This document shows, in pieces, positions 51,029 through 53,324 of a stretch of 64,000 bases of DNA. Location of the stretch: assembly GCA_017538105.1 (NCBI GenBank), contig JAFYJN010000069.1, positions 1 to 64,000 on the forward strand, given 5' to 3'. A program made the position numbers and the translations under genes. The first letter of the stretch is position 1, and each line of letters opens with the position of its first letter. The notes below the pieces were generated by a model. That model searched no databases. It was not told the DNA's origin and was given only the letters and a program-made list of their open reading frames with translations. This DNA is from Prevotella sp. Its GTDB lineage: Bacteria > Bacteroidota > Bacteroidia > Bacteroidales > Bacteroidaceae.

Positions 51029-51435
51029 CCGAAAATAGGTAAGTTCGTAAAACGCGTTTAAAGCGGATTTATGATAATTAGTGTCCAAAGGTAATAGAGT
51101 ATTCAGTACACGTTATGTTTTTTTCGCTTTTTTTCATCAACTTGTTGCGACAAGATGTGCTTTTTTGCTACAAATTTAAGCACCCCCTTCATCTATTGTC
51201 GTATAGGACATGTACTACATTCAAATAAGCCAATAGATATAAATGGCTAAGAGATGGCAATTATCATAAAGGTTCTTTCTAAATGATTCTTTGCGTCTTT
51301 ATCTCGTAGGCAAAGATACTACTTTTTTTGATAACATAGAAAAAAACGGTCAAAAGAACGTGTTTTCCGAAAAATTCACTATATTTGCAGTTGACATGGA
51401 ATGTCTTGATGCTTAACCATTAACCTTTTACTGAC
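51029..51435. other. Divergent intergenic region between susC and the ATPase/DUF4435 pair
   Basis: 407 bases, AT-rich. Minus-strand -7-like boxes: TACCTTTG at 51086-51093 (for susC), TAAATTTG at 51171-51178 and TATCTTTG at 51311-51318. A small hairpin CTTGT-TGCG-ACAAG is at 51142-51155. On the plus strand TATATTTG at 51380-51387 lies 49 bases before the ATPase ATG. No gene, tRNA or regulator is seen. Confidence 0.5.
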
Positions 51436-52257
51436 ATGCAGAAATACGCGGAATATATTCAGGAAATTGAGATTGACTCGCTGTGGAGCGGAAAAAAACA
51501 TATTAAGTGGCGGCTTGACCGCAGGGTGAATATTCTCAGCGGCGTGAACGGCATGGGAAAGAGCACCATCATCAATAAAGTGGTGAAAGGACTTTCCGCA
51601 GGTGGCGAATTTCCTTCGCACATGCTCAAAGGGGTTCACTTGAAAGTTTTTCCCGCCGAAGCGAAGTGGATACGCTATGATGTGATACGTTCTTTCGACC
51701 GTCCGCTCATGAGCAACGACATGATAGGGAAGATGGACTTGTCATTGGCTACGGAGCTTGACTGGCAGTTGTTTAAGCTGCAGCGCAAATATCTCGACTA
51801 CCAAGTGAATATGGGTAACCGAATTATCCAGGTACTGCAGAGTGGAGATCCTGATGCGGCACAACAGGCGCAGGCCATCTCCGAACCGAAAAAGCGCTTC
51901 CAGGATATCATGGATGAACTGTTCGCCGATACGGGAAAGAAAATAGTGCGTTCGGAGAATGAGATACGCTTTTCGCAAATAGGCGAGACATTGGTGCCTT
52001 ACCAACTCTCCAGCGGCGAAAAACAAATCCTGGCCATCATGCTCACCGTGCTGGTGCAGGATGGGGAAGATTATGTGCTGTTCATGGACGAGCCAGAGGT
52101 GAGCCTGCATGTGGAGTGGCAGAAACGACTCATCGACCTGGTGCTGGAGCTGAATCCTCATGTGCAAGTTATCCTGACCACACATTCGCCAGCCATCATC
52201 ATGAATGGATGGATAGACAGCGTGACGGAAGTGTCGGACATTACTGACGTTGATTGA
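51436..52257 (+). CDS. AAA/ABC-type ATPase, partner of a DUF4435 protein (PARIS AriA-like)
   Basis: A 273-residue ABC-like ATPase. Walker A GVNGMGKST (residues 36-44), a C-loop signature LSSGE (191-195), Walker B LFMDEP (215-220) and an H-loop His250 in TTHSPAII are intact, with a helical insert between about 95 and 165. It fits the AAA_15/OLD class. Next to a DUF4435 gene, with stop and start overlapping by one base, it resembles AriA of the PARIS phage-defence system, but AriA is, from memory, clearly longer than 400 residues. Function is inferred from the pair only. Confidence 0.82.
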   Translation: MQKYAEYIQEIEIDSLWSGKKHIKWRLDRRVNILSGVNGMGKSTIINKVVKGLSAGGEFPSHMLKGVHLKVFPAEAKWIRYDVIRSFDRPLMSNDMIGKMDLSLATELDWQLFKLQRKYLDYQVNMGNRIIQVLQSGDPDAAQQAQAISEPKKRFQDIMDELFADTGKKIVRSENEIRFSQIGETLVPYQLSSGEKQILAIMLTVLVQDGEDYVLFMDEPEVSLHVEWQKRLIDLVLELNPHVQVILTTHSPAIIMNGWIDSVTEVSDITDVD

Positions 52258-53324
52258 TGGGAAAGAGACTGGGCGACAACCTATCGTCGGAATATATCAG
52301 CGCGGCCAACAAGATGAAGTCGAAACAGGCGCGCCGGCGTATCGTGGCTTATGTGGAGAGCTACGAGGATATATTCTTTTGGCGTATGGTGCTCAGTGAG
52401 TTCGAAAACGACAAACGTTATTTTGAGGTGATGCTCCCCTCAAAAATCAATCTGGCTAAAGGAAAGAAACAGGTGCTCATGAACCTGGTCAAGGATAAGG
52501 TGGGGCGCGACATGATTGCCTGTGTTGATGCCGACTACGACTATCTCCTCCAAGGTGTCACGGCGATGTCGAGACAAGTCATTGAGAATCCATATGTGTT
52601 TCATACCTACGTGTATGCCATCGAAAACTACCAGTGCTATGCGCCCTCGCTTCACGACGTGTGCGTGATGGTGACGCTCAACGATCATGTAATGGTTGAT
52701 TTCGAGGAGTATTACAAACTGTTCTCACAAGCTATCTTTCCACTCTTCGTCTGGAACATCATGCTCTATCGTACCAGCCATTACGCCGACTTCACCATGA
52801 CCGATTTTAATCGGGTGATAGAAACGGGCAATTTCAACATACAAGACCCTCTGCGCGGCATCATGAATGTTCGCAAAAAGGTGGGAAGAAAGGTGAGGAT
52901 GCTTCAAGAGGAGTATCCAGATGCCAAAGAGCGTTTTTTGGCCACCAAGGAAAGCCTGAAAGATTTGGGGGTGACGGCCGACACGGCTTATCTCTATATC
53001 CAGGGACACCATCTATTCGACAAGGTGACGCTTCCGATGATGAACAAGATTTGTGATAAGTTGCGCCGTGACCGCGAGATGGAGATACGCCGTAAGGCAG
53101 TACATTCCACTCAGATGCACAACGAATTGTCGTGTTACACGCACAGTATAGAACAAGTGATTTCGATGCTCAAGAAAAACACAGGCTATTTCCAATCGGA
53201 ACCTTATCTCCGGCTCAAAGAAGATATCAAACGTTTCCTTGAAGGAAAAGGAAAGAGCCCATCGGCCAAGGAAAAGGCATCCATTGCAGTCGCCGACCTT
53301 TCGTCAACATTGGATGCCTTGTAG
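52257..53324 (+). CDS. DUF4435 protein with TOPRIM-like motifs (PARIS AriB-like)
   Basis: A 355-residue protein. Residues 29-42 (VAYVESYEDIFFW) carry a Glu at 34 and a later DxDxD (CVDADYDY, residues 89-96); these are the acidic motifs of TOPRIM-type nucleases. The AIENYQCY segment is typical of DUF4435. The C-terminal 150 residues are helical and charged. ATG 52257 overlaps the ATPase stop by one base; a TTG at 52254 is less likely. In PARIS, the DUF4435 subunit AriB is a toxic nuclease released on phage attack. Here the role is an inference. Confidence 0.82.
   Translation: MGKRLGDNLSSEYISAANKMKSKQARRRIVAYVESYEDIFFWRMVLSEFENDKRYFEVMLPSKINLAKGKKQVLMNLVKDKVGRDMIACVDADYDYLLQGVTAMSRQVIENPYVFHTYVYAIENYQCYAPSLHDVCVMVTLNDHVMVDFEEYYKLFSQAIFPLFVWNIMLYRTSHYADFTMTDFNRVIETGNFNIQDPLRGIMNVRKKVGRKVRMLQEEYPDAKERFLATKESLKDLGVTADTAYLYIQGHHLFDKVTLPMMNKICDKLRRDREMEIRRKAVHSTQMHNELSCYTHSIEQVISMLKKNTGYFQSEPYLRLKEDIKRFLEGKGKSPSAKEKASIAVADLSSTLDAL

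Follow-up and report, generated by a model that had tools for sequence, protein, structure and literature searches.

Is a gene pair that published rules call an anti-phage system necessarily an accessory one? The question is raised by a compact ATP-binding cassette (ABC) ATPase gene and an adjoining DUF4435 gene in Prevotella sp. (assembly GCA_017538105.1); positions 1-64,000 of the forward strand of contig JAFYJN010000069.1 were analysed (64,000 nucleotides; the window). The first-pass annotation took the pair for a possible minimal relative of PARIS (phage anti-restriction-induced system; ATPase AriA, nuclease AriB), and offered as an alternative a core gene pair. The distribution bears out the alternative. 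Nearly every genome sampled in the genus and in the family carries the pair, its distances look vertical and its rates slow; this pattern does not support a small acquired defence system. The pair is a slow-evolving core member of the wider AriA/AriB superfamily with vertical-looking inheritance, and the most fitting description of the intact AriAB-like module, from its sequence, is that of a core PARIS variant. The two genes are as follows.

51436..52257, plus strand: compact AriA-like ABC ATPase, 273 residues (open reading frame, Pfam, PADLOC, PDB profile and Foldseek)
52257..53324, plus strand: AriB-like DUF4435 protein, 355 residues counted from the ATG, with an N-terminal TOPRIM-like fold (open reading frame, Pfam, PADLOC, model and Foldseek)

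The core sequences were compared in two alignments, A1 (DUF4435) and A2 (ATPase), which include 42 of 51 core sequences: the window, 21 same-genus loci and one locus each from 20 other genera. Near-redundant same-genus loci (L036, L038, L040, L043, L045, L047, L049, L053 and L064) were left out; L058, L059, L061 and L062 were excluded too. Of the 247 genus genomes searched, each at least 90% complete, all but G012 and G259 have a DUF4435 match (245 genomes; weakest best E-value 6.6e-67). The window genome has a single match, and 21 of the 247 have two, some perhaps representing split genes. At family level, profile A1 matches 117 of 121 genomes at E 1e-40. The match is of core type in 116 (4.0e-135 or better), while G288 has a divergent match alone (1.7e-66). 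The ATPase is found in 116 of the 121 at E 1e-30, five of them in pieces; in four of these five a shortened ATPase accompanies a core-type partner, and the fifth, G342, has a near full-length ATPase. At the thresholds used, the pair was not found in G325, G367, G375 and G390, two of which are single-contig assemblies. The pair is dispensable, since these four family genomes do not have it; its absence from them, together with that of DUF4435 from two genus genomes, means that it is not essential.

Across the order, DUF4435 occurs in 25 of 109 genomes (24 above the Pfam cut-off) and is heterogeneous; outside the family it is patchy (23 of 107 genomes of the order). An earlier mixed sample gave DUF4435 in 36 of 60 genomes including the window's own, with two weak matches among the 24 genomes of other families. 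Of the best 80 named loci, taken from a longer list, 76 are titled Prevotella or Prevotellaceae; the rest are Hoylesella buccalis, Marseilla massiliensis, Bacteroidaceae bacterium and uncultured bacterium. Records with core-type genes bear the names Prevotella, Hoylesella, Marseilla, Bacteroides finegoldii and Phocaeicola massiliensis, and from these names we infer that the family sampled is Bacteroidaceae in the GTDB sense. An accessory, mobile distribution is usual for PARIS, if not strictly defining; the window pair does not have it. The available extract of PMC9122126 describes PARIS as patchy and present in 5.2% of genomes.

In its distances the pair follows housekeeping genes. Mean within-genus identity over shared pairs is 0.752 for the ATPase against 0.758 for Dxs, and 0.625 for the DUF4435 protein against 0.601 for TrkH. 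Mantel tests of distances against those of TrkA and of Dxs gave rho 0.75-0.79 (p 0.001, n=22); rho for TrkA against Dxs is 0.75 (n=21). Within-genus-only correlations are weaker (rho 0.26-0.63). The ratio of second-position to fourfold-site change against the sister locus L031 is 0.023 for both the ATPase and TrkA, 0.066 for Dxs, 0.133 for the DUF4435 protein and 0.146 for ManA. With L032, which is more distant, the ratios are 0.166 (ATPase), 0.188 (Dxs) and 0.244 (TrkA); the DUF4435 protein has the highest value among the genes compared (0.315; TrkH 0.270). In a tree of 59 rows, from which short and duplicate fragments were removed by script, 36 core rows, including four with shortened ATPases, lie on one side of a branch with support 99/96, and the 12 genus core rows form a single clade (100/100). 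The tested-type AriBs L230 and L231, the plasmid relatives and three viral-contig relatives lie outside the core clade, where placements are unsure and many branches are long.

Kinship with AriA and AriB, as the first-pass annotation proposed, is borne out by several lines of evidence. The detection rule in the accessible portion of PMC9122126 calls PARIS where an AAA_15 or AAA_21 protein lies beside a DUF4435 protein, above 32/27/27 bits; the window pair scores 59.1 (AAA_15), 73.3 (AAA_21, E 4.7e-20) and 187.4 bits (DUF4435, 4.5e-55). The ATPase also matches Pfam SMC_N at 2.6e-10. PADLOC identifies the ATPase as AriA (PDLC04164, 1.5e-55, covering 4-251 of the 253-position model) and the partner as AriB (PDLC02983, 5.3e-64; PDLC04165, 3.8e-32). 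NCBIfam has no family for the DUF4435 partner, and gave no match above curated cut-off for the ATPase among the 25 matches listed. Profile A2 matches AriA (8ux9_B) in the PDB at 1.4e-20, with the ABC halves at 7-54 and 190-265 in the ATPase and at 5-51 and 364-437 in AriA.

AlphaFold2 models of the two proteins have mean predicted local distance difference test scores of 89.7 and 88.4. Foldseek was run against the PDB, with the best 50 matches listed per protein. AriA chains are the top matches of the ATPase (best 8v45_C, 3.8e-12), and the PtuA proteins of Septu and of a retron are interleaved with AriA from rank 8. The best match of the partner, a weak one, is AriB (8ux9_A), the only PARIS chain among the matches listed. 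The partner model starts strand-helix-strand-helix-strand, with E34 right after strand 1 and D91 right after strand 3; a TOPRIM domain has this strand-helix order with acidic residues after the first and third strands. By profile match and predicted fold, the ATPase is homologous to AriA. The motifs of the two proteins are located as follows.

51541..51564, plus strand: ATPase Walker A GVNGMGKS, residues 36-43 (GVNGMGKST, 36-44), from the 42-row alignment
51754..51933, plus strand: ATPase helical-hairpin arm between the ABC halves, residues 107-166, from the model, insert lengths and profile gaps
52006..52026, plus strand: ATPase ABC signature LSSGEKQ, residues 191-197, from the 42-row alignment
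52075..52098, plus strand: ATPase Walker B VLFMDEPE, residues 214-221 (MDEPE, 217-221), from the 42-row alignment
52183..52185, plus strand: ATPase H-loop His250, 42/42 in the alignment
52356..52358, plus strand: DUF4435 protein TOPRIM Glu34, counterpart of AriB catalytic E26, from alignments via L230
52527..52541, plus strand: DUF4435 protein D91-A-D93-Y-D95, with D91 and D93 corresponding to D-R-E of AriB, from alignments via L230
53004..53009, plus strand: DUF4435 protein G250-H251 motif, from the 12-protein alignment A4 (G250 12/12, H251 at least 90%)

The two open reading frames, and the Walker A, signature, Walker B and H-loop motifs of a 273-residue ATPase, are as first annotated. The key residues of the Walker A, signature, Walker B, D-loop and H-loop motifs do not vary: ATPase residues G36, N38, G39, G41, K42, T44, L191, S193-Q197, M217-P220, S223, H225 and H250 are identical in all 42 rows; S43 (39/42), S192 (41/42) and E221 (41/42) are near-invariant, and V37 and M40 vary. 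In the DUF4435 protein E34, D38, D91, D93, D95, E123, G250, H251 and E290 are identical in 42/42. Residue 68 is basic (K or R) in every row; it aligns at AriB K64, while K60 falls in a gap.

The bridge to the tested enzyme is L230, a Pseudoalteromonas AriB which matches AriB of the PDB (8ux9_A) at 6.2e-70; AriB residues were numbered from that alignment. Via L230, AriB E26 corresponds to E34, D30 to D38, D-R-E to D91-x-D93, the E of ENY to E123 and the G of RGH to G250. A direct sequence link to AriB of the PDB was sought with phmmer, with profile A1 and with three plasmid DUF4435 proteins; none was obtained, and the link runs via L230 only. The DxDxD motif of TOPRIM type stands in part: Glu34, D91 and D93 have AriB counterparts, while D95 is kept inside the core clade only and has no clear counterpart in L230, which has D-x-E at D91-x-D93. 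By these alignments the nuclease is probably homologous to AriB, with counterparts of catalytic E26 and of the acidic pair. According to the portion of PMC12409363 available, AriB E26A is inactive and the K60A and K64A mutations prevent defence.

What, then, does the core pair do? The account that we find most probable, with some reserve, is a core, vertically inherited AriA/AriB-superfamily pair in which the ATPase restrains a TOPRIM ribonuclease until a phage or stress trigger releases it. An AriA hexamer sequestering AriB has been described (PMC11455837). PARIS responds to Ocr-like anti-restriction proteins, and its action includes tRNA cleavage and growth arrest. By homology, the ABC ATPase would form a complex with the TOPRIM protein and hold it inactive; ATP-dependent sensing of some trigger would alter the ATPase, and the freed or activated TOPRIM enzyme would then cut RNA, most likely the anticodon arms of transfer RNA (tRNA). 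Two metal ions would be held by E34 and D91/D93. Complex formation, ribonuclease activity and the tRNA target are all drawn from this homology. Where AriB cuts E. coli tRNA-Lys(UUU) there is a UAAUC-A stretch, according to the extract of PMC12409363. A pattern search found this stretch in host tRNA-Lys(CUU) and tRNA-Asn(GUU); this shows only that a target could exist. A second tRNA pattern gave 71 matches; none of the eight examined as loci contained a tRNA.

The presumed sensor side of the pair is where change is seen. In G305, G336, G310 and G368 (loci L089, L086, L087 and L088, respectively), a core-type nuclease with 46-48% identity lies beside an ATPase lacking most of the helical arm. 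The ATPases have 224-227 residues in three of these genomes; the fourth is a 292-residue open frame with the same gap by profile. The four pairs belong to two genera placed apart in the tree. In a fifth genome, G008 (L051:8016-8861), the ATPase is 42% identical to that of the window and its DUF4435 partner 55%; this is a candidate for sensor-side replacement or acceleration. ATPase divergence beside an orthologous nuclease, as in these five genomes, is what sensor turnover would look like. Of the sequence evidence, it is what chiefly favours a role in immunity or stress sensing. Because the pair is also dispensable, we slightly prefer a fixed guard, immune or stress-related, to pure housekeeping; the two are close rivals.

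Several observations weigh against the account of an ATPase-restrained ribonuclease of AriA/AriB type. Immune systems are not usually so nearly universal or so slow to evolve. As the first-pass annotation noted, the ATPase is smaller than AriA, and its insert of about 135 residues compares with about 312 in AriA, so that more than half is absent. The fold match of the partner to AriB is weak (E 7.8e-3, probability 0.98, template modelling score 0.31/0.35, root-mean-square deviation 16), the window protein is only about 12% identical to L230, and a search of the PDB with DUF4435 profile A1 did not find AriB. Finally, the host tRNA-Lys(UUU), counterpart of the main E. coli AriB target, was not recovered by a pattern matching an E. 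coli-like arm.

The strongest rival is that the pair is a housekeeping enzyme. It would be an ATPase-gated TOPRIM ribonuclease or deoxyribonuclease for RNA maturation, stress RNA decay or repair, sharing ancestry with PARIS; as a core ribonuclease with a cellular rather than immune role, it would have given rise to mobile PARIS or have arisen alongside it. We regard this account as a real, if lesser, possibility. Near-universal presence in the family favours it, as do conservation of the ATPase to the level of Dxs and of the DUF4435 protein to that of TrkH, an ATPase ratio against L031 equal to that of TrkA, and the separation of the core clade from plasmid and viral relatives. PADLOC gave no match in five flanking genes of the window copy, and in the extract of PMC12409363 the active site of tested AriB is like that of RNase M5, a maturation enzyme. 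The account fits less well with the four family genomes without the pair, the fifth with a divergent copy alone, and the two genus genomes without DUF4435. Nor does it readily accommodate a core type that the genomes searched show in a single family, the sensor-side divergence in five genomes, or the ratio of the DUF4435 protein against L032.

It is improbable that the pair is an ordinary PARIS, that is, a standard horizontally moving anti-phage system situated here by chance. Such a system would explain the Pfam rule and the PADLOC calls, and plasmid-borne divergent pairs do exist; it is contradicted by the distribution, by the congruent distances, by recurring neighbourhoods and by the lack of a mobile gene at the window copy as read from the sequence. 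A search of the phage collection gave no match at E 1e-3, and the three viral-contig relatives fall outside the core clade. Least probable is an OLD/RecF-type accessory of DNA repair or recombination, with DNA and not RNA as its substrate: an SMC/RecF-type ABC head (the SMC_N match) and a TOPRIM partner are the parts list of OLD nucleases, but the nearest folds are AriA, with Septu and retron PtuA close behind, and AriB, and the basic residue of the AriB RNA loop is kept.

The core pair has consequences for annotation. The published rule calls the window pair PARIS, and PARIS is read as an accessory immune system. Pfam DUF4435 scores three core members at 9.6e-49 to 4.5e-55, while at E 1 the copy of the model used did not report L230 and L231, both near the tested type of AriB. 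PADLOC AriB PDLC02983 matches 42/42 core members (best 1.3e-75) and L230 at 2e-10 only. Because these public models fit the core far better than they fit near relatives of tested AriB, the high PARIS counts reported for gut Bacteroidales would, if the non-immune account is true, be largely annotation of a core operon; 'PARIS in gut Bacteroidales' may largely be this core pair. Against such a bias, NCBI records label the L230 and L231 proteins as DUF4435, so other models do catch them. In the accessible part of a Bacteroides phage study, PARIS, which may or may not be the core pair, is among the transcribed predicted defence systems of a strain (PMC12135933). The literature listings that we searched showed no report of a family-wide core AriAB-like pair.

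If the signal is a core operon of one family, then gut PARIS prevalence, 'second-line defence' arguments and PARIS-phage ecology need revision. If the pair is a fixed PARIS, a whole family has retained an abortive-infection module, which is unusual; a housekeeping pair would mean that major gut bacteria have a new RNA enzyme, from which PARIS may have originated. Lineages without the pair, one of them with an empty site, make comparison practical.

The two genes of the window overlap by one base (TGATG: ATPase stop TGA 52255-52257, DUF4435 ATG 52257-52259), and an alternative TTG start is possible one codon upstream of the ATG. The first-pass annotation described this overlap correctly, but it is kept locally only: by raw coordinates in 53 loci, L031 and the divergent L058 also overlap by one base, eight other loci have larger overlaps, some due to upstream start choice, and gaps of 0 to 54 bases prevail (41/53). 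In all but one of 54 fetched loci, and in the window, the genes adjoin on the same strand with at most 357 bases between them. The exception is L062 (G030:C15), where a divergent second ATPase lies beside a 205-residue DUF4435 open frame below threshold; this genome also carries the core pair, and L062 is possibly a decaying accessory pair. An idea that accessory copies lie among defence genes was dropped, as 8 of 10 Pfam-scanned neighbours of L061, L062, L227 and L229 matched families, mostly metabolic. These neighbours include one HipA-type protein and one RNase III (Pfam); PADLOC on five of the ten gave no match.

A further feature lies upstream of the ATPase gene.

51380..51387, plus strand: TATATTTG, Bacteroidetes-type -7 promoter motif (TAnnTTTG), 56 bases 5' of the ATPase start

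TAnnTTTG, which we take to be the Bacteroidetes -7 promoter consensus, was sought in 35 of the 51 core loci at hand, and 28 of them have it at most 150 bases before the ATPase; 3.7 are expected from a mononucleotide shuffle. As first annotated, the pair stands alone on the plus strand between minus-strand genes, named here by sequence reading: SusC/SusD-type genes upstream and ManA, TrkH, TrkA and Dxs downstream. The same reading found no mobile gene between 46659 and 59131.

That relatives carry the pair at this locus holds in part: nearly all carry it across species, but the site is not always the same. A Dxs-cluster gene is near the pair in 22 loci (18 within the genus and 4 outside). In 14 of 51 core loci, seven in the genus and seven outside, the opposite-strand upstream gene belongs to one BLAST cluster, a transporter cluster (cluster 5); this cluster also drew antisense frames (L042, L071) and one of two L068 frames, and 14 loci were kept after checking. 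Its members in L066 and L067 match a B. finegoldii transporter (Pfam EamA). L041 unites both neighbourhoods: A2M, DUF1573 and MeaB, then class II tRNA synthetase, FKBP, transporter, pair, TrkH and Dxs. Several same-genus loci have none of the window's flanking genes nearby; therefore, the site is not fixed.

The interval between the DMT transporter and MscS genes holds the pair in L066 and L097. In G325 this site is empty, with the transporter and MscS genes 150 bases apart (4.3-kb contig of a 320-contig assembly). In G375, G390 and G367 (L222, L223 and L224, respectively), the same flanks as those of the pair in L066, another member of the same genus, enclose a 5-kb stretch with tricarboxylic acid cycle genes. 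Pfam identifies aconitase, isocitrate dehydrogenase and citrate synthase in L222, and the other two genomes have the same frame lengths. A defence-slot swap at this interval was considered and dropped on account of these three genes.

Two records labelled plasmids, OY726067.1 and NZ_OY725943.1 (L214 and L097), contain core-type genes. The Bacteroides finegoldii record has an annotated pair among ordinary chromosomal-type genes; that of Phocaeicola massiliensis has at least the DUF4435 gene (52%). Both are possibly chromosomal contigs with a wrong label. Eight frames of 525-545 residues from other families of the order (L183, L185-L189, L192 and L207) match Pfam DUF4435 and the ATPase profile, not the A4 profile; these are apparently ATPase-DUF4435 fusions.

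Among known systems, PARIS of E. coli (PDB 8ux9, 8v45-8v49) is the closest. It shares with the window an adjacent ATPase and DUF4435/TOPRIM gene, in the same order in L230, the same ABC motifs, the E26 and D-x-E counterparts and the top Foldseek match for both partners, a weak one in the case of AriB. In contrast to PARIS, the window ATPase has 273 residues and a short arm (464 residues in AriA), the nuclease is far diverged from L230, the near relative of tested AriB, and the pair belongs to the core chromosome of a single family where PARIS is patchy. The plasmid pairs of Klebsiella, E. coli and Psychrobacter (L211, L212 and L213) have the same gene order, and PADLOC calls AriA and AriB for both that were scanned (L211 and L212); they differ in ATPases of 325-343 residues, nuclease identity of 18-19%, plasmid location and a position outside the core clade. 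PtuA of Septu and retrons has the same ABC head, and its folds are interleaved with those of AriA; its ATPase is longer and its partner is an HNH nuclease, not TOPRIM, whereas the window partner is DUF4435 (no HNH match listed in Pfam). OLD and Gabija combine ATPase and TOPRIM in a single chain; the window pair is encoded by two separate genes, with a TOPRIM of AriB type.

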